The translations under genes were made by a program, and so were the position numbers. DNA of 64,000 nucleotides from a bacterium (GTDB taxonomy: Bacteria; Eisenbacteria; RBG-16-71-46; CAIMUX01), in the NCBI GenBank assembly GCA_030431975.1, contig JAUIHP010000002.1, forward strand, positions 124,001-188,000. The letters run 5' to 3'. Under the pieces are notes generated by a model. The model had not been told where the DNA came from, made no database searches, and was given only the letters and a program-made list of their open reading frames with translations. This document shows, piece after piece, positions 2,827-13,173 of this stretch. How positions within the stretch are numbered: position 1 is the first letter of the stretch; the number at the start of each line of letters is the position of its first letter.

Positions 2827-4371
2827 ATGGGAGAGCCAATCTTGGTTTGGAAGATCAGTCCGCAGGCCGAAGGGCCCGTCCTCGTCTGCGCCGTCGTGTG
2901 CGCCGTCTCGTGCGCCCTCGCATGCGTCCTCGCAACCATCCTCGCCGGGCACTTCACATCCGCGTCGGCAACGACAACTACGGACCCGTCGGTTGAGTGG
3001 TTCCGCCTGCAACTTCATGGAAAAGACGCCGGGTTCCAGGAGAAGAGAACGACCCGCAACGGGTATCACTCCGTTTCTGTTCTTCTCATCGAGCGCGACG
3101 GCGAAGCGTTGGCCCTGTCGCAGGAAGAGACGTTCACCGCCACTGCCCTGCCTCGGCTGGATTGGCAGTTTGTCCTGGCGCCGGGCGACACGTTGCGACG
3201 GAGCGCACTCTTCGCTCCCGACTCCGTTCGCATCTTCGACGGGAACGGTCGGGCCCTGAAAGTCATCACGCGCCCGGAGTCGCTGCTTCTTCCGGACGAG
3301 CGGGAAGCCGAGTTTCTCCGGGCCGCACAAGCGACAGCCACACGGCCGGCCGAGCTTGGCTTTCATCGATTGCTACCGGAGCTGGAAACCGTGGTCCGGA
3401 TCCGCGCAGAACAGGAAGTCCCCCGGCCAAACGGGACCGCGGCCGGTGCGTGGAATCTGAGCGTCGTCGACGCCCCCCACCTGGACACGCGGGAATGGCG
3501 TGACGAGTCCGGCCGGCTTCTACGATGGGAGAGCCAGAGTTCCGGGTGGTCCGCAGAGCGGACCCCGACGCGCCCCGCAGTCCCGGAGACTCCCGCCCAG
3601 TTGGCCCGTCGCGACCGGGAGCCGACCGTCGGTTTTCGTTTTCTCCCCCGAGCGACCTACCCGAAGCTCGTCTACCGAATCCAACGATCCGAGGGGAGCC
3701 CCACCCTCCCACCGCACCCCACAATCAGGGCCCAATCCGGGTCCGCCGGAGCGAGTGGAGACGTGACCGACGTCTCGGTCCACGCACTGGCGCTGCCTAG
3801 GGCGGACACTCCAAGAGTCGGTGACACGGGCTCTGCCGAAGAGGGGCGCCCGGGCCATGAGGCGCTCGCTGCGACCGAATGGGTGGATTATGACCACCCG
3901 GTCTTTCGTCCCCTGTTGGCCGGAATCGATTCCGATTCCGATTCCGATTCCGATCCCGATGCCAATGCCGAGCCGTGGATTCATGCAGGGCGTCTCGTCC
4001 AACTTGTGCACCAAAAACTCCGCCCGAGTGCCGGATCCCATTTTGCAAAGGCCTCGACCGCGCTCCTTCAAGGTCACGGGGACTGCACAGAGTTCGCGGT
4101 GGTCCTGGCGGCACTGGCGCGTGCCTCCGGCCTTCCCACCCGTTTCGTCGCCGGATGGGTCGGGATCGACAATTCGATGGGATACCATTTGTGGAATGAG
4201 GTGTATATCGATGGGGCATGGTTCGGGCTCGACGCCGCGCTCAACCGCTTCCCCACGGATGCCAGATATGTTCCCATGGTGGTTTCTTCGCCGGACCGGG
4301 ATGACCCGGTTCAGCTGTTTCGGGAGCTGGCGGCCTTCGGTTCGATTCGGATCGAAGTCGTCACCCCCTAA
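2827..4371 (+). CDS. Membrane-anchored transglutaminase-like protein with intact triad
   Basis: About 514 aa. An N-terminal hydrophobic segment (residues 14-40, many Ala/Val/Cys) acts as signal or anchor. A middle region of about 300 residues follows with no recognised fold, then a transglutaminase core. The triad is Cys420 in HGDCTE, His454 in YHLWNEVY and Asp469 in FGLDAAL, as in bacterial transglutaminase-like peptidases and amidases. The ATG at 2827 was chosen because the anchor follows directly; an ATG at 2704 is in frame but adds a non-conserved basic stretch. An Asp-Ser repeat sits just before the core. It is followed at 4402 by a related protein with a broken active site, suggesting a joint role in the envelope. 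The substrate is unknown. Confidence 0.75.
   Translation: MGEPILVWKISPQAEGPVLVCAVVCAVSCALACVLATILAGHFTSASATTTTDPSVEWFRLQLHGKDAGFQEKRTTRNGYHSVSVLLIERDGEALALSQEETFTATALPRLDWQFVLAPGDTLRRSALFAPDSVRIFDGNGRALKVITRPESLLLPDEREAEFLRAAQATATRPAELGFHRLLPELETVVRIRAEQEVPRPNGTAAGAWNLSVVDAPHLDTREWRDESGRLLRWESQSSGWSAERTPTRPAVPETPAQLARRDREPTVGFRFLPRATYPKLVYRIQRSEGSPTLPPHPTIRAQSGSAGASGDVTDVSVHALALPRADTPRVGDTGSAEEGRPGHEALAATEWVDYDHPVFRPLLAGIDSDSDSDSDPDANAEPWIHAGRLVQLVHQKLRPSAGSHFAKASTALLQGHGDCTEFAVVLAALARASGLPTRFVAGWVGIDNSMGYHLWNEVYIDGAWFGLDAALNRFPTDARYVPMVVSSPDRDDPVQLFRELAAFGSIRIEVVTP
3927..3961 (+). repeat. Hexanucleotide GATTCC microsatellite inside the transglutaminase gene
   Basis: Five to six copies of GATTCC encode a (Asp-Ser)n linker directly before the transglutaminase core. 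The unit is a multiple of three, so copy-number changes would only lengthen or shorten the linker. Confidence 0.85.
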
Positions 4372-4401
4372 AACGTAGCCGTGCTTCGAGGAGTCCCTTC
4401 A

Positions 4402-5721
4402 GTGAGGTTTTTCGCTTCGTTCGTCTGCAGCGTCGTAGTGGCGGCGCTTCTGCCCATGGGAACGGCTTCGGCCTTTGAGGATGTCGAAGTTCGGGCCATC
4501 GTCCGTAACCAGGTCTCTCCGGAGGACTACCCGGGGGCCGGGGGCGTTTGGATGGCAAGGCTGGACGAAATCACGATCGACGGCGGCGGCGGAATGGTCG
4601 GCCGGACCCATCTTCTGGCCCGTGTCTTCGACCCGGCATGGGGCCGGGAGCAATTCGGACCGTTCACGATCGACTACTGGTCCGAGAACCAGGCCGTTGT
4701 CGTGCGGAAGGCATCGATTTACAAGTCACCGGACGAGGCCATCGCGCTGCCCAAAGAGTCCGTGACCTTCGTCGCTTCTCCTCTTGTCGAAGGAATCGAA
4801 CCCTACTCCGCACTTCGCCGGCTCCAGGTCGACTTCGGAGAACTCGAACCCAATGACGTCGTCGAGATCGTTCTCGAGAAACGGAAGCGCCCCCGAGGCG
4901 GGGACTTCAGCGTGCAGTGGCTCGTTCATTCCTTTGGTGCGAACGACCCGGTGATCGAACAACAGCTGCGACTGCGGGCTCCCAATGCACTGAAGCCCGA
5001 CATCACGACCGTCGGGCCGAGGGTGCCCAGTACACGCTATGCCGACGGAGGGTTCTTCCGCAGGGAATGGCTCAACGGACATCTGGCGCCCGTAGACGGA
5101 GGCGTCGAGGAAGCCCTCTTTGGAAGAGTGCAACGAAACCCGGCACTCGGGGACAGCACCGGAAGCATCGTCGTCTCCAGTACGGGCTGGCACTATCTCA
5201 GCAAGTACATCGGGAGACAGTGGGGTTTCATCCTGGCCGAGGACGGAGGCGAGCTCAACCGGACTGTCGGAGACCTCATCGAAGGTAAGGACGACATGAT
5301 CGAGCGGGCTCGCGTCCTCGAGGAGTTCGTTCAAAAGGAGATCCGAACTCTCGACATTTCCACCGCCATCACCGGAATGCGACCTCTACCCTGCCGTGAC
5401 GTCCTCGCCAGCGAGGCAGGCACTCCCATCGACAAGTCGATGCTTCTTCTGGCCATGCTCCGTGCCGCCGGCATCGATGCGCAACCCACGATGGTCCGGA
5501 CCAAGGCCGGAGTTTGGGACGAAAAGGTCGCCTGCCCGGACCAACTGGATCGCGTCCTTCTCCACGTGGACCTCGGACGGGAGCTCTGGCTGGATCCTTT
5601 GGACTCGGAAGCGCTCCCGCCGTCACAGGGATTCCTCATCGGCCTCATCGATCCCAACGCACCGGACGTGGACACGGATGCCCTGGGATTGTTCGAATTC
5701 CCCGGCAGGGAAGCCCGCTAG
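4402..5721 (+). CDS. Secreted DUF3857/transglutaminase-fold protein, catalytically dead
   Basis: 439 aa with a clean signal peptide (MRFFASFVCSVVVAALLP..TASA). The N-terminal half resembles the DUF3857 beta domain (tyrosine- and glycine-rich, with FGELEPNDVVEIVLEKR). The C-terminal half has the transglutaminase-like layout: helix ARVLEEFVQKEIRT, then RDVLAS, then LLLAMLRAAGIDA, then LWLDPLD. Where family members have the catalytic Cys (GDCKDK), this one has GTPIDKS with Pro342. The His strand reads LDRVLLHV with Arg384 at the His position. Only the Asp remains, so it is probably a binding domain. The GTG at 4402 has GAGGAG nine bases upstream, better than the GTG at 4381. It ends two bases before the convergent motB stop. 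Confidence 0.7.
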   Translation: MRFFASFVCSVVVAALLPMGTASAFEDVEVRAIVRNQVSPEDYPGAGGVWMARLDEITIDGGGGMVGRTHLLARVFDPAWGREQFGPFTIDYWSENQAVVVRKASIYKSPDEAIALPKESVTFVASPLVEGIEPYSALRRLQVDFGELEPNDVVEIVLEKRKRPRGGDFSVQWLVHSFGANDPVIEQQLRLRAPNALKPDITTVGPRVPSTRYADGGFFRREWLNGHLAPVDGGVEEALFGRVQRNPALGDSTGSIVVSSTGWHYLSKYIGRQWGFILAEDGGELNRTVGDLIEGKDDMIERARVLEEFVQKEIRTLDISTAITGMRPLPCRDVLASEAGTPIDKSMLLLAMLRAAGIDAQPTMVRTKAGVWDEKVACPDQLDRVLLHVDLGRELWLDPLDSEALPPSQGFLIGLIDPNAPDVDTDALGLFEFPGREAR

Positions 5722-5722
5722 C

Positions 5723-6487
5723 TCACTGGCCCTGGTAGCGAACGACGATCGAGATGCGGCGATTGCGCGTGCTGAAGGGGCGTTCCTTGTCGAGCAGGTT
5801 GCGATCCGCATAACCGACGACGCGAGCAATGCGGGTTGGGTCGACTCCGCCCGCTTCCAGAACCCGACGCGCCGAGTTGGCGCGGCGCGCACTCAGTTCC
5901 CAGTTCGTCGTGGTCCCGCCGGCAAAAGGACGCGCGTCCGTGTGGCCTTCGACGATCACTTCGTTTGGTAGATCGGCCAGGACCTGGGAGATCGACCCCA
6001 GAAGCTTCTTCGTCTTGTCGGTGGCCTCTTCCGAACCCGTGAGGAAGAGCGGGGTGTGCTCCTCGTCGTGAATCTGGATACGCAGCCCCTCATTCGAGAG
6101 TTCGATCGAAACCTGGCCGTCGAACTCACTCAGCGTCTCATCCTGATCGATGGCAGCTTGGATCGCCTGGGCGGAACGCATGAAGAACTCCTCCTCCATT
6201 TCCCGCTGCTCGCTTTCCGTGCCGCTCGACTCCTCGTCCCCTCCGCCCTGCAGCTCTCGCTTGGCCTCGATCTGGGCCAGGCGCTCCTGAAGGGCGATCG
6301 CACCCTCGGCGGAAAGGAATCCGCGGCCTTCACCGGGAAAGATGCTGGGATTGTTGAAGTAGGCGGCCACCGCAGCCTTCGTCTCTTCGCTGGAACTCAG
6401 GAGCCAAAGGACGATGAACAACGCCATGAGCGCTGTGACGAAGTCGGCAAAGGCGACCTTCCATGCTCCACCGTGATGCGTTGCCAT
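5723..6487 (-). CDS. motB: Flagellar motor protein MotB (stator, peptidoglycan-binding)
   Basis: 254 aa. The N-terminal plug and membrane segment contain AFADFVTALMALFIVLWLL, with the proton-carrying Asp at about residue 15. A variable Glu-rich linker follows, then a C-terminal OmpA/MotB domain with VIVEGHTDARP, a LSARRANSARRVL helix and a YADRN...NRRISI tail for binding peptidoglycan. With MotA it forms the stator ion channel. The charged stretch before the membrane helix is short but ends in the common HHGGAWK motif. GGAGAG lies ten bases before the ATG. The gene is 88 bases downstream of motA. No other flagellar gene is visible here, so use in gliding or another motor cannot be excluded. 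Confidence 0.92.
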   Translation of the reverse strand: MATHHGGAWKVAFADFVTALMALFIVLWLLSSSEETKAAVAAYFNNPSIFPGEGRGFLSAEGAIALQERLAQIEAKRELQGGGDEESSGTESEQREMEEEFFMRSAQAIQAAIDQDETLSEFDGQVSIELSNEGLRIQIHDEEHTPLFLTGSEEATDKTKKLLGSISQVLADLPNEVIVEGHTDARPFAGGTTTNWELSARRANSARRVLEAGGVDPTRIARVVGYADRNLLDKERPFSTRNRRISIVVRYQGQ

Positions 6488-6575
6488 CCTGATCGATCTC
6501 TCCTGACCGCCGCCCGACTCTCCGCCGGGTCTGACCCGCCGCTCTCGCGGTCACCGACGGGTTTGTCTCAGCCCG

Positions 6576-7433
6576 CTAGGCTGCGCGGAGCTGCTTGCAG
6601 GCGTCTTCCACCGAATCCCGTTCGGGACGGAGATACGAGAAGAGAGCCCGCCTCGAGGTCTCGACGACGACGACTGGGGCCTTTCCTTCGGCGAAGGCCA
6701 CGATCCCGTGCTTGATCGCTCCGTAGAAGTTGCCCATGTCATGCTGCTCCTGCTCCATGGCGATGACCACAGGCTGGGCGAAGCCGTACGAAACGAGGAT
6801 TCCCAGAAACGTACCAACTAGGGCCACGGCGACATGGTGCCCAATTTCCTCGGGGCTTCCGTCGAGGTGTCCCATGGTGATGATGATTCCCAAAACGGCC
6901 GCGACGATACCGAGACCGGGAAGGGAGTCGGCCACAATGTGGAGGATGTGCGGAAAGGCGTGCTCTTCCTGGTGATGAGCTTCCAACTCTCGATCGAGCA
7001 TCGTGCTCAACTCTTCGGGGGTGACCGCACCGTCAACCTGAAGTCGGAGTGCGTCGGTGAGGAAATGGAGCATGTGTTTGTCTTTGAGAATCTTCGGATA
7101 GTTGGAAAAGATGTCGCTGCTCTTGGGCTCAGTGATGTGACTCTCCAGCGCGATGACTCCCTCCTTCTTGACGAGAAGAGCCAGCTGGAAGAGGCAGACC
7201 AGCACTTCCTGAGCGTACTTTGCACTGTAGGAGGACCCCTTGAGCGGCGCCATGGCCCGCCCGGCCAGCTTCTTGAACTGATGCGGCAGCGCCATGATGA
7301 GGGTCGCGCCGGTGGCCGCTCCGAAGATGACCAGGACTTCGTAGGGCTGGATGAGGATTTCCAGGTGTCCGCCGGACAGGACGAAACCGCCGGCGACCGC
7401 GCCGAGCACGATGATGAACCCAACAAACCGCAA
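6576..7433 (-). CDS. motA: Flagellar motor protein MotA (stator)
   Basis: 285 aa with four membrane segments: a first pair at the N-terminus (VGFIIVLGAVAGGFVLSGG, then PYEVLVIFGAATGATLIMA) and a second pair around residues 165-215 (GLGIVAAVLGIIITM and VALVGTFLGILVSYGFAQP). A long cytoplasmic loop lies between them. The helix-3/4 region matches the MotA signature, including the proline of PGLGIVAAVLG that faces the MotB Asp. The start is TTG with GGAGGT eight bases upstream. It is the first gene of a motA-motB operon. Confidence 0.93.
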   Translation of the reverse strand: MRFVGFIIVLGAVAGGFVLSGGHLEILIQPYEVLVIFGAATGATLIMALPHQFKKLAGRAMAPLKGSSYSAKYAQEVLVCLFQLALLVKKEGVIALESHITEPKSSDIFSNYPKILKDKHMLHFLTDALRLQVDGAVTPEELSTMLDRELEAHHQEEHAFPHILHIVADSLPGLGIVAAVLGIIITMGHLDGSPEEIGHHVAVALVGTFLGILVSYGFAQPVVIAMEQEQHDMGNFYGAIKHGIVAFAEGKAPVVVVETSRRALFSYLRPERDSVEDACKQLRAA

Positions 7434-7523: not shown

Positions 7524-7586
7524 CGGACGAGGGGGCAATTCATTCCCGCGGACGAGGGGGCGCTTCACTCCTGCGGACGAGGGGGC
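7524..7586. repeat. Three direct repeats of 13 bp, period 25 bp
   Basis: The 13-mer CGGACGAGGGGGC occurs at 7524, 7549 and 7574. The copy at 7574 is the last coding stretch of the Ig-repeat gene (APPRPQ). The other two lie in the gap before motA, which otherwise holds only the motA ribosome-binding site. Confidence 0.85.
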
Positions 7587-10500
7587 GCTTCCACTGTGGT
7601 GAACGTGGCCCGATAGCGGTCAATCTCCGGGGTACAGGGATCCTGGTCGAACGGCCGGCCGTTGGTATCGACCAGGCCCTCGAGGACGTCGATGGTGTAG
7701 AAACGGTCCGGCGTCAGAGCCTGGCCCAGTTCGAGGATGACCTGCGAGTCCGACTCCCCGAAGCGGATGTCGGACAGGTCCACGGGAATGAGCCCGCCGA
7801 GGCGGAGCCGGAAGTAGTCGGTGCTGAGGGTGCTGTCCGGAATGGCGCGTGTCAGGTCGATGACGACCTCCGTCAACAAAGTGTCGACGTTCGAGGCTCC
7901 ATTTGCGGGTTCTGACCCAAGCACGCCGAGGGCGCAGAACGAGACACCGGAGGTGTCCGCACTCCAAAGCGTGTCATCGTCCCTGGCCATGAGAATGACC
8001 CGGTAGGACTCGTTGCAATCCTCCGCGTCCATGAGGCCGTCCCCGTCGTTGTCGATCCCGTCGCAACCGGCAAAGTCGAGGCAGGGATAGCCGTGGGACT
8101 GGACGTAATCGGCCGGCTCCGGGTTCTCGATGAACGTCTCGGTGCCATCTCCCCACTGGAACCAGAGGGTTTCGATGACCCCGTCCGGATCCACCGTTCC
8201 CGAGGCATCGAACGTGACCCAGGTCGTGTCCGCGCAAACCGAAGGGCCGAGCTCCACATCGGGAAAGTCGCCGACCAGGAAGGAAGACTCGAACGACTCG
8301 TTGTCCGGAGTGTCCGGATCCTGATCGAGCGGATTGCCGGCCAGGTCCTGCAGGAAGAAGTCTGCGCGCACGCGGTACTCGAAGCCGGGTTGCAACGGAC
8401 TCGTCGGGGTAAAGAAGAACGTTCGGGCCTCATCGTCCCAGGTGATCTCGCCATCCCCCGGATATTCGAGACTGCCCTCGACGCGGGAAACCGAGAAGTG
8501 AAGGTCGTTGAACGTGGACGTCATCATCGGTTCGTTGAACCCGAGACTGATGACGACCTCCGGCACGACGCCCTCGGCGCCGTTCTCCGGGAACACGCTC
8601 ACGACCATCGGCGGCATTGTGTCGTCCGCCGTCACGAACTCCCGGACGTAGGAGTCCACTTCGCCCGTCTCGGGGATCTGGTCGAAAACGTTGCCGAAGA
8701 GGTCCGTGACCCCGTCTAGCTCCATCCGGTAGTCGGTCGAAGGCAGCAGCAACACATCCGGGTTGACGAGAAGCGTCTCGGGAGCGACCCAGCTCGTACT
8801 CACGGACACTTCTTCTCCGCCGATCTCGAACAGACGCAGATCCCCGGCCTCCAACGAGCCCGGGTCGATCGCCTCGCTGAACACGATCCGCGGCTGCGTG
8901 TCCTGTGGAACCGGCTCGTCCTCGAAGACCGTGTTCAGGACCGTCGGCGGGACGTTCTCGTCTCGCACCGTGAACTGCGACACGTAGGAGTCCAGCTCAT
9001 CGGTGTCGGGAATCTGATCGAAGGGATTGCCCAGAGTGTCCGTCAGCACCGAGTCGACGACCACCCGGTACAAGGTCGAGGTCAGGAGGGGCTCCGCCGG
9101 CTCGAGACGCACTTCTGCCGGAGATGTTCGTGTACGTCCGCTCAGCGCGACTTCGACATCGTCGCCGCGGAAGAGGCGAACACCGCCGAGACTCGCATCT
9201 GCCACAGCTTCGTCGAGCACGACGGTGGGTTGCACCTCCGGCTCGACGTCGACGGCGCCGTCTTCCGGGGACACCGAAACGACGGCGGGTCCGACGCGGT
9301 CCCTTTCCGTCCGGAAGCTCGACTGGAACGGTTCGAGCTCCGACGTCGACCGGTTCTGGTCCAACGGATTCCCCCATCGGTCGGTGGCCGTGGTCGCGAC
9401 TTGCAGAAGGAAGACCCGGTCCTGCTCCAGGACCGCGTTCGGAGTGAAGGTCGCGCGCGCGCTGTCTGCAGCCACCACGACCATTCCATCGACCGGAAGA
9501 GCCATCTCATCGCGTAGGGTGATCGCTCCCGGGATGGACGCCGGATTCATCGCTTCGTCGAAAAGCACTTCGATCGAGGTCGCAGCGGACACGTCCTCTT
9601 CGCCGTCGGCGGGACTGACGGCGACGACCGAAGGCGAAACACGCTCGTGGTCGATGGTGAACGTGCTCTTCCATCCCTGCCGTTTCGGCAGGTCGGGATC
9701 CTGATCGAGACGGACGTCGAAGTCGTCGACGACCCAAGTCGTGATTTCGACCTCGTACGTGCGCAAAAGAGTGAAAGCTTCCACTGGAGTGAAGGTGGCG
9801 CCCTGTCGATCCGGGTCGACATCCAGACGGCCAATCAGCGGATCGCCACCCAAGGGTCGTACCAGGAACGTCTCGACGTTGACCGAACTCGGAAGGACTT
9901 CCTTCGTGAACCGGACCTGCACGATCGATTCCGGATCCACGCCGGTCGCATCCGGCGCAGGCTCGACACTCGCCACCTGTGGGGGAATCGAATCCGGCCG
10001 AGTCGTGAAGATGCTTTGGAAAGCCTGTCGTCCGATCAGATTGAGGTTCTGATCGAGAACACTCCCCTCCACCGTGCGCACGCCTTCGTTGAGGCGGACG
10101 GTGTACTCGGTGAAGACATCGAGATCCTCGACGGGATCCAGAGTGAGTGTCCGTCCGTTGCCGGAAAGCAAACGCAGCACCGAGATGGGCTCACCACCCG
10201 CCAGGAGTTGAGCCGAGCCTTCGGTCACACTCGTCGGATCCGCCGCGAGATTGAACTCGATGGCAATTTCTGCGGTGGGTTCGACCCGGCCTTCGTTGTT
10301 GCGGGGCGTGACGCCGACGACCTGTAGGTTCTCCTCCGCGCGAAACTTGGAGAACCAACGCTGGAATCCCGGAGTGTCCGGGTCCTGATCGAGAGGGATA
10401 CCCTCGGCATCGAGGATCCCTGTCGTCAACTCCAACTCGTATTCTGTTCCCTGTTCGAATCGGCTGGCCGGCACAAAGGTGAACACCCGATTGCCCGGCT

Positions 10501-12061
10501 GCACGGTGATGACTCCGTTGATGCTGGCCCCCACCGGCAGCTTGCGCACACGGAACGTGGTTTGGCTGACGACGGTCGAAGGATTCATCTCCCGATCAAA
10601 CGTCACGACGACATTGTCGAAGGTCGGATGGTTCCGCTCGTCAGGTGCGGGAACGGCATCGACGATCCGTGCGCCAGCCGGCTGGTCTTCCGTCCGGAAG
10701 GAAGACGTGAAAGGTTCGAAGATCGGGATCTCCGTCAGGGGATCCTGGTCGAGCGGTTCCCCGAACAAGTCCAGTACGTCTGTCGTGACTTCGACGGCAT
10801 AGTTGGTCTCGTAGCCGAGGGGCACGGTTGGAACCAAGGTCAGGGTTGCGGTCTGCGCGTCGAAACTCCGGGTCACGGCCACATCGGAGCCGGTCTCCGT
10901 CTCGAGCACGACCGACTCGTTCGTCACCGTGCTTTCGTCGATCTCCCGATTGAACCGGATCTGGACTTCTGAGCCGATCGGGACCGATGCTTCCCCGGAT
11001 TCGGGATCCACCGACAAGACGAGGAGAGGGTCGTAGTCCTGGACCGCAAACTCGAACGCGTAGCCCTGAAGTCCCGGCTCCTCGGCGTCCTGATCGAAGG
11101 GGCGGCCCAGAACATCTTCCACCCCAGGATCGATCTCGACACGGTACCGGCGGCCCCGGCGGAGCGGCGCCTCGGGCTCGAGCGTCAGGAGCGTGGCGTC
11201 GCCGCGTCTGTCGATAGCGACGGGATCTTCCAACGGCAGCTCGAGCAGGCGGACGGTCTCGTCCGACAAAGTCGGCCAGTTCATGTTCCGGTCGAACTCG
11301 ATACGGGGTTGAACCGTGTCACCAACGGCGGAGGCCTCGTCGGGCGGTTCGGTCGACACGATGAACGGCAGGTCGCGAACGTCCTCGGCAAGAAAGGCCC
11401 TCGGTTCGCTGTGGCGCGACCAACCCCGAACCAACTCGGCCCGCACTCTGTAGATCAACGGTTCGCCACCGGCCGCGAAGGACCGCTCCCTTCCCCCGCG
11501 TAGCTGAAACGTAAAGGAGGTATCGGCGCTGCTGTAGGTTTGGCTTTCCTCCCCGATTTCTTCCAGGACTTCGTAGCCCAACGCACCGGGGATCGGAGTC
11601 CACGACACCTCGTAGTCGAGGTCGCCGGGCATGGCCGTAATCGGATGTAACGCGGGAACGGTGTTGGTCAGCGCCACCTCGACCCGACTGGTACGAGCCG
11701 CGCGAACCTCGACACCGTCTACCTCTCCCAGGGCCGTCAGTCCGCGGGCTCTCTCCCCCTGCGAATCGATCCACAAAGCGACGCTGAGATCGTCCGTTTC
11801 TTCGAGCCGAAGGTCGAACTCAAGATCATCGTCGACGAGTAAGGGTCGACGCTCGCGAATCCGAAGCTCCGGTCCCTCGACGAGAAGATGCAACGAATCC
11901 AGCAGTCCCGGGAACGGAGCACGCTCATCGACACGCCAGGTCAGATCCACGTCGCCGGCGCCGTTTCGACCGGCGTCCTCGCTGCACTGCATCGTCGACA
12001 GTGCGAGGAGCATCAGCCCCCCGATCACTATCAGGCGCCTCATTGCCATCAAGCGCCTCAT
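7565..12061 (-). CDS. Giant surface protein with about ten Ig-like (Big_5) repeats and a PKD domain
   Basis: 1,498 aa. After a hydrophobic leader (RRLIVIGGLMLLALSTMQC, a weak lipobox) comes a fibronectin-III-like domain, then about nine SbsA/Big_5-type Ig repeats. Each starts with P-DG/E--V and a strand like IEFDR-MN and ends in a conserved LDQDP-T...FTS-F motif. A PKD-like domain (FDASGTVDPDG, FQWGDGT) then follows, interrupted by a calcium-loop-like insert (GIDNDGDGLMDAEDC), and a tenth Ig repeat closes the protein. The ATG at 12061 overlaps the upstream stop as ATGA and has AGGA nine bases upstream; in-frame ATGs further up fit less well. Probably an extended adhesin or scaffold outside the cell. 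It is the last gene of a four-gene coupled operon. Confidence 0.85.
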   Translation of the reverse strand: MRRLMAMRRLIVIGGLMLLALSTMQCSEDAGRNGAGDVDLTWRVDERAPFPGLLDSLHLLVEGPELRIRERRPLLVDDDLEFDLRLEETDDLSVALWIDSQGERARGLTALGEVDGVEVRAARTSRVEVALTNTVPALHPITAMPGDLDYEVSWTPIPGALGYEVLEEIGEESQTYSSADTSFTFQLRGGRERSFAAGGEPLIYRVRAELVRGWSRHSEPRAFLAEDVRDLPFIVSTEPPDEASAVGDTVQPRIEFDRNMNWPTLSDETVRLLELPLEDPVAIDRRGDATLLTLEPEAPLRRGRRYRVEIDPGVEDVLGRPFDQDAEEPGLQGYAFEFAVQDYDPLLVLSVDPESGEASVPIGSEVQIRFNREIDESTVTNESVVLETETGSDVAVTRSFDAQTATLTLVPTVPLGYETNYAVEVTTDVLDLFGEPLDQDPLTEIPIFEPFTSSFRTEDQPAGARIVDAVPAPDERNHPTFDNVVVTFDREMNPSTVVSQTTFRVRKLPVGASINGVITVQPGNRVFTFVPASRFEQGTEYELELTTGILDAEGIPLDQDPDTPGFQRWFSKFRAEENLQVVGVTPRNNEGRVEPTAEIAIEFNLAADPTSVTEGSAQLLAGGEPISVLRLLSGNGRTLTLDPVEDLDVFTEYTVRLNEGVRTVEGSVLDQNLNLIGRQAFQSIFTTRPDSIPPQVASVEPAPDATGVDPESIVQVRFTKEVLPSSVNVETFLVRPLGGDPLIGRLDVDPDRQGATFTPVEAFTLLRTYEVEITTWVVDDFDVRLDQDPDLPKRQGWKSTFTIDHERVSPSVVAVSPADGEEDVSAATSIEVLFDEAMNPASIPGAITLRDEMALPVDGMVVVAADSARATFTPNAVLEQDRVFLLQVATTATDRWGNPLDQNRSTSELEPFQSSFRTERDRVGPAVVSVSPEDGAVDVEPEVQPTVVLDEAVADASLGGVRLFRGDDVEVALSGRTRTSPAEVRLEPAEPLLTSTLYRVVVDSVLTDTLGNPFDQIPDTDELDSYVSQFTVRDENVPPTVLNTVFEDEPVPQDTQPRIVFSEAIDPGSLEAGDLRLFEIGGEEVSVSTSWVAPETLLVNPDVLLLPSTDYRMELDGVTDLFGNVFDQIPETGEVDSYVREFVTADDTMPPMVVSVFPENGAEGVVPEVVISLGFNEPMMTSTFNDLHFSVSRVEGSLEYPGDGEITWDDEARTFFFTPTSPLQPGFEYRVRADFFLQDLAGNPLDQDPDTPDNESFESSFLVGDFPDVELGPSVCADTTWVTFDASGTVDPDGVIETLWFQWGDGTETFIENPEPADYVQSHGYPCLDFAGCDGIDNDGDGLMDAEDCNESYRVILMARDDDTLWSADTSGVSFCALGVLGSEPANGASNVDTLLTEVVIDLTRAIPDSTLSTDYFRLRLGGLIPVDLSDIRFGESDSQVILELGQALTPDRFYTIDVLEGLVDTNGRPFDQDPCTPEIDRYRATFTTVEAPPRPQE

Positions 12062-13173
12062 CGGGTCCATTCCTGCGACCACGATGCAGAGAGCCCGAAT
12101 CCGGAAATGTCTCGCCCTTCCCGCACCTGTCCGGCGGAGTACTCAACACCCACAGAAACGTCGCTGGCGCCGACACTCCAACCGATCCCGGCTGAAGGCG
12201 TGATCCAGTCGGAACGCCCGAGGGCGGACGAAAAGCCACGGTGATGGGTGCCACCGAGTCCGACCCTCCAGCTCCAAATGTCTTCCACGGCCCATCCCAG
12301 CTGCCAACGGAAACGGTTCCCTCCGCGAACGAAACCGGGCTCGAGAAGAAGATCCGGGTCGACGCTTCCCGCAGAGACGAAGAGCATTTCCAGGCCGACG
12401 GAAAGATCGCCTGTGGCCAGAGCCAGCCGCGCGTCGGAACCCACGCCGACCTCGGAGCCGAGATCGAAAGCCGGTGATCCGCCCACATCCTCGCTGCGAC
12501 CGGACTGCCACCAGACCTGGTGATGGAAGAGGGCCAGAGAGGTGGCCTGATCCAGTCCGAACGCGAGTCCCGCCGCCATCCCCCCGGACGCGTCGAGGCC
12601 GTCGTCGCGAAGATCGTAGGCGCCGGAACTTGCGACGTGGGCCCCGGCCACGCCGATCAGTCCTCTCTGTTCGAAGACAACGCCCTGGGCCGCGGCATGG
12701 AAACGGTGTCCCGTTCCCAAATAGCTTGCGGGCAGGTTGAGGACCGGCTCGGCGACGCGCGAAAGGACGCGCGTTTCGTCCAGTTCATACGGTCCCTGTT
12801 CCAGGATCCAGTCGGCACCGACCTCGAAGCGGAAACGGTTGTCCCAGGCAAAGCGGGACGCGCCGATGCCGAAACGGGAGAGCCCGGAAAGTTCGTGGGT
12901 GCCTGCGTCGTCCGACACTTCCGACTTTGCGAAGTCGAGGGAAAGGTCGAACTGCCACGGCTCGAAGTCTGCTTCCGCACGGATGGGGATAACGGTCTGG
13001 TCGACGCCGACCTCTTCGATATAGGTTTCGTAGGTCCACGACCGGACGATGGCGCCGGCTTCGGTTCGAATTTGCGCGGACGCGGAACCGACCGTTCCTC
13101 CGACCGTCGCCCCGGCGGTCGCAAGGGTGGCCGCGCCGACCACGAATGCCCGGATGGGACCCGGCGCGCTCAT
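12058..13173 (-). CDS. Predicted outer-membrane beta-barrel protein
   Basis: 371 aa with a signal peptide of about 33 residues (VVGAATLATAG...GSASAQ). The rest is many short alternating strands with Gly/aromatic girdles (WQFDLSLDF, FRFEVGADW, LALFHHQVWW, FRWQLGWAV) and ends in a strand rich in Trp (LSASWSQEW), as expected of a 12-16-strand porin-like barrel. No specific family is recognised. Start and stop overlap both neighbours by four bases (ATGA), so it is co-translated with the TolB-like protein upstream and the Ig-repeat protein downstream. It may anchor or export the latter. Confidence 0.65.
   Translation of the reverse strand: MSAPGPIRAFVVGAATLATAGATVGGTVGSASAQIRTEAGAIVRSWTYETYIEEVGVDQTVIPIRAEADFEPWQFDLSLDFAKSEVSDDAGTHELSGLSRFGIGASRFAWDNRFRFEVGADWILEQGPYELDETRVLSRVAEPVLNLPASYLGTGHRFHAAAQGVVFEQRGLIGVAGAHVASSGAYDLRDDGLDASGGMAAGLAFGLDQATSLALFHHQVWWQSGRSEDVGGSPAFDLGSEVGVGSDARLALATGDLSVGLEMLFVSAGSVDPDLLLEPGFVRGGNRFRWQLGWAVEDIWSWRVGLGGTHHRGFSSALGRSDWITPSAGIGWSVGASDVSVGVEYSAGQVREGRDISGFGLSASWSQEWTR

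Follow-up and report, generated by a model that had tools for sequence, protein, structure and literature searches.

The locus raises the question of what a transglutaminase-fold protein without catalytic residues is retained for, and whether the triad-bearing protein encoded directly upstream is its partner. The gene lies at 4402-5721 on the forward strand of the window (the whole 64,000-nucleotide stretch of DNA that was analysed) and its product is here called P0001; the upstream gene encodes P0002. A sequence-only reading had taken the two as an active/inactive pair, hinting at a two-subunit enzyme or a substrate-binding partner.

Domain layout and predicted structure of P0001

P0001 has 439 amino acids, encoded from a GTG start at 4402 to a stop codon ending at 5721 (+), and a ribosome-binding-site-like GAGGAG is found at 4388-4393 (+), 5′ of the start. 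Residues 1-24 (4402-4473, +) were read by eye as a probable signal peptide, and we infer that the protein is exported. The alignable part of the P0001 orthologs begins at a common F/Y-x-D-E-V-like motif. Pfam places a DUF3857 domain (PF12969) at residues 68-230 (4603-5091, +) with 47.7 bits against a gathering cut-off of 24.6, and a Transglut_core match (PF01841) at residues 290-364 (5269-5493, +) with 24.6 bits, which is barely above its cut-off of 23 and counts against the explanation preferred below. With both domains above cut-off, the DUF3857/transglutaminase layout claimed earlier holds. On the opposite strand, MotB and MotA genes (5723-7433, −) are convergent with the P0001 gene, an order kept in genomes G001 and G002, and a giant protein with Big_5 Ig-like repeats in 10 stretches is encoded at 7565-12082 (−); several genomes of the order keep it next to P0001.

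The best structural match of a P0001 model predicted from eight orthologs (pLDDT 84.3, pTM 0.85) was 3kd4 (Foldseek E 9.9e-27), superimposed over nearly the whole length with Z 31.9, rmsd 3.0 and 352 aligned residues. The ortholog profile of P0001 picked out the same entry (E 1.6e-13), its sole match among solved chains. It is BDI_1141 of Parabacteroides distasonis, entered as a 'putative protease', with the same DUF3857 plus transglutaminase-fold layout as P0001, but it comes from a different phylum and is 15% identical over the structural alignment. The C-terminal domain of P0001 resembles the transglutaminase-fold cysteine proteases 3isr and LapG with Z about 10 over 129-138 aligned residues, although their Cys-His pair is missing in P0001. 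The DUF3857 sandwich (window 4474-5190) resembles ribophorin I of the oligosaccharyltransferase (OST) and the N-domains of M1 aminopeptidases with Z about 9-10, a level of likeness that may reflect no more than a common arrangement.

Loss of the catalytic residues in P0001 and its orthologs

Alignments place Pro342 (codon 5425-5427, +) in the catalytic Cys column and Arg384 (5551-5553, +) in the His column, and the triad acid Asp398 (5593-5595, +) is retained. When the profile of the P0001 orthologs was aligned with that of triad-bearing DUF3857 proteins (probability 99.5), GTPIDKS of P0001 was matched to GDCKDK and its QLDR to the F-D-H motif, so that the residues and the profile-profile alignment agree on the two substitutions named by the sequence-only reading. 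Cysteines occur in P0001 at positions 9, 331 and 378 only, and P0001 is the only one of the eight orthologs with Cys at the columns of Cys331 (in RPLPC) and Cys378. The sole His near the site, His388, is likewise unique to P0001, and the invariant His70 lies within the DUF3857 half. An alternative active site using Cys331, Cys378 or His388 is excluded because none of the three is conserved, and with it falls the objection, raised in the sequence-only reading itself, that another Cys/His such as the Cys of RPLPCRD might occupy the site. Judged by its residues P0001 is a pseudoenzyme, as first called.

P0001 matches were found in 12 of the 47 genomes of the phylum; a contig scan with the P0001 sequence alone as query gave no match. 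Eight loci, that of the window included, have neighbours in common with the window, namely a SpoU methylase, a PP2C phosphatase and MotB/MotA or the giant Big_5 protein in varying combinations. In the genomes G000 (the window), G002, G001, G003, G004, G009, G006 and G007, in this order, the Cys column holds P, P, T, P, S, P, P and R and the His column R, R, R, H, V, R, R and R. The catalytic Cys is absent from all eight syntenic orthologs and the His from seven, the G003 ortholog retaining it, which counts against the preferred explanation. Asp398 is invariant in all eight, as are Gln381 and His70. These eight orthologs rule out that the residues were lost by a recent mishap or through a sequencing error. 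From the alignments, the substitution of Cys and His is beyond chance and their loss is old and stable. The G001 ortholog frame opens with a long poly-Ser stretch.

In a sequence alignment inspected by eye, the Cys, His and Asp columns of the triad are occupied in 3kd4 by Pro, Thr and Ser, so the one solved structure matched is a pseudoenzyme too. Since the orthologs are without Cys/His and 3kd4 is without a triad, P0001 can be placed in a conserved set of pseudo-transglutaminases.

P0002 as a candidate partner

P0002 (2827-4371, +) is the first gene of a likely two-gene unit and has the full triad ascribed to it earlier, Cys420, His454 and Asp469. Its Transglut_core match is strong (58.7 bits) and Pfam found no DUF3857 in it; by domain content it is a different kind of transglutaminase from P0001. 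An Asp-Ser repetitive run lies ahead of its transglutaminase domain at about 3930-3960, and a P0002 model from two sequences (pLDDT 30.2) was unusable.

That the two proteins make up a dedicated enzyme of two subunits, with P0001 to present the substrate and P0002 to catalyse, is conceivable but rather doubtful. The genes are on the same strand with 30 nt between the P0002 stop and the P0001 start, so co-transcription is likely, and in G004, from another family of the order, a P0002 ortholog lies upstream and overlaps the P0001 ortholog by 4 nt, each aligning end to end with its counterpart in the window. The host genome, G000 (97% complete), has six Transglut_core matches and two DUF3857 proteins, neither of which bears the triad. 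The second of these, a DUF3857-transglutaminase on contig C50 at 170285-172447 (L035:7286-9448), has Val for the Cys and keeps His and Asp; a relative of this protein in G002 (C547) is also without the Cys. Any catalytic partner of P0001 in G000 would therefore be of another kind, with P0002 the nearest and first candidate.

Against a dedicated enzyme, P0002 adjoins P0001 in only two of six informative loci (G000 and G004), which also counts against the preferred explanation. It is absent upstream of the P0001 orthologs in G001, G003, G006 and G007, where the upstream flanks are readable; the contigs of G002 and G009 end about 0.5-1.4 kb upstream with no P0002 there and are outside the six. 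Among the phylum genomes searched, G004 alone yielded a full P0002 ortholog. Proteins resembling P0002 elsewhere were ruled out as orthologs because they match it in the transglutaminase core only, and several of them have, by eye, a repeat-rich N-terminal half unlike that of P0002. The pair thus co-occurs at two loci and not at the other four, an obligate P0001/P0002 enzyme is unsupported, and P0001 is independent of P0002 in most of its range. P0002 is also without the DUF3857 domain, and the two genes may be neighbours through inherited synteny, like the PP2C and SpoU genes beside them. The idea of an active/inactive pair is therefore weak for P0002 as the partner.

Tandem DUF3857-transglutaminase loci

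The same idea fared far better in tandem DUF3857 genes, where 'active' denotes that the triad is present in the sequence. Pfam DUF3857 gave 37 matches in 17 of the 47 phylum genomes, tandem pairs among them. At each of 11 loci in the phylum, being all tandem loci seen in the P0001-match and Pfam DUF3857 searches, exactly one protein has G-[DV]-C-K-D with His and Asp and one is without Cys/His. An independent test covered 30 of 80 genomes reached via named loci (Bacteroidota, Pseudomonadota, Verrucomicrobiota and others), taking places with two close DUF3857 matches plus the L169 pair from the set of 80 loci. Exactly one member bears the triad at all 18 tandem loci obtained in this way; at L195 two dead members lie beside it. 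One triad-bearing protein accompanied by one or two Cys-/His-less proteins was accordingly found at 29 of 29 tandem loci (11 in the phylum and 18 elsewhere).

One ORF of 1314 amino acids (L201:1608-5549, +), from the same genome as L140, fuses an active with an inactive DUF3857-transglutaminase. Its first half is active (GVCRD, FNH, MDPT), and its second half, which has a very long branch in the tree, is without Cys/His at those columns. Among 44 inactive rows, one gene being counted twice, 13 have Arg and 13 have Tyr at the His column, 32 retain the Asp, and the Cys column holds A, V, P, S, D, R, T and others with no conserved nucleophile. The junctions of the phylum pairs are mostly tight, with a 4-nt start/stop overlap in 8 of 11. 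Taken together, the 29 loci and the fusion strongly suggest from sequence that an active and an inactive transglutaminase work as a pair in tandem DUF3857 genes.

Single triad-bearing DUF3857 genes are common, with only one DUF3857-transglutaminase ORF in 78 of the 80 loci; of the other two, L127 has one gene broken into two ORFs and L169 a tandem pair plus a single gene. A dead partner is therefore no general need of the family, which counts against the preferred explanation. A common neighbour of the tandem loci L087, L089, L090, L092 and L094 was not found by Pfam among 10 flanking proteins. A TIR-domain ORF lies directly 3′ of the tandem pair at L090 in G010 (L090:9530-10294, +).

Phylogeny of the inactive proteins

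The eight P0001 rows formed a clade with support of 100/99 in a tree of 47 rows, sister (98/95) to seven Cys-less proteins, a group that takes in the dead members of one tandem system and of which six are in a tandem pair. Together they make up a 15-row, all-inactive group, supported by 98/95 in this tree and by an SH-aLRT of 94 in a tree of 85 rows. The inactive label required three changes on either tree, versus shuffled means of 16 (47 rows) and 28.8 (85 rows). In the 85-row tree, active and inactive clades could be matched in four sets, two in the phylum and two among the tandem loci elsewhere. Support near the root is weak in the trees, which counts against the preferred explanation.

The inactive tandem-pair members (for example L089:7002-8921 and L085:383-2377) are the sister clade of P0001 in both trees and have lost Cys and His alike. 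They adjoin a triad-bearing DUF3857 protein whereas P0001 does not, a difference that again counts against the preferred explanation. They are also of about 640 amino acids or more with a C-terminal part that P0001 is without; the G003 ortholog of P0001 (L028) has this part. The data fit an old split between catalytic and non-catalytic proteins that would have been inherited together as pairs, with the P0001 line now without an adjoining DUF3857 partner.

Probable role of P0001

On balance P0001 is probably a secreted non-catalytic protein, of a clade akin to the inactive pair members, and most likely acts by binding. Binding is made probable by the lost catalytic residues together with close relatives that include the dead halves of pairs in several bacterial groups. 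In the periplasm or on the cell surface, the beta-sandwich and the dead transglutaminase domain would bind a substrate, be it a protein or a peptide, or would bind and modulate an active enzyme of the transglutaminase fold. This role is proposed on the model of prozyme and other activators that are dead paralogs. P0001 may be a detached non-catalytic subunit with P0002 as a possible present partner. A more specific account, which we hold only tentatively, would make the tandem DUF3857 genes of Bacteroidota and this phylum an ancient two-subunit periplasmic enzyme whose dead subunit presents the substrate or activates the catalytic subunit, the two being fused at times, with P0001 as a dead subunit that became separated from its first partner and was re-paired with the unrelated P0002.

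It is improbable that P0001 is an enzyme relic, in decay or dispensable. The loss of the catalytic residues would be expected of a relic, as would fast divergence, the orthologs being 19-39% identical to P0001, but they are open frames at this identity in seven other genomes, which indicates a gene under selection, and the eight intact syntenic copies have 14 invariant columns and the predicted fold is confident over the full length. Least probable of all is an enzyme still acting through different residues, for which the invariant Asp398 and the recurrent Arg or Tyr at the His column could be cited, since the Cys column of the inactive rows offers no conserved nucleophile and Cys331 and Cys378 are, among the eight orthologs, confined to P0001. 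The preferred reading therefore remains a non-catalytic, binding protein.

Comparison with known systems

DUF3857 is a domain of unknown function, and the sole structure matched, 3kd4, is labelled a protease yet is without a triad. Many 'transglutaminase' or 'protease' labels in the DUF3857 family are on dead proteins, and such annotation should be read with caution. In the literature available to the search, a single paper mentioned 'DUF3857', in the neighbourhood of lolA, and no paper was found on DUF3857 active/inactive pairs in a search that also took in inactive or pseudo bacterial transglutaminases. '3KD4' gave one relevant paper among the texts available, as a fold match for vasohibin, and the literature search found no paper on BDI_1141. 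The rule of one active and one dead protein at 29 of 29 tandem loci leads to the testable hypothesis of a heteromeric enzyme.

Dead proteins of the papain and transglutaminase folds have been described before, among them EPB42, FBXO21 and menin (PMC10318531), and P0001 is therefore no new kind. Activation by a catalytically dead paralog of the prozyme type is described for the AdoMetDC and the deoxyhypusine synthase of trypanosomes (PMC5201418, PMC3663545). What the prozyme systems have in common with the DUF3857 tandem pairs is an enzyme paired with its own dead paralog. The folds of the prozyme systems are unrelated to the transglutaminase fold.
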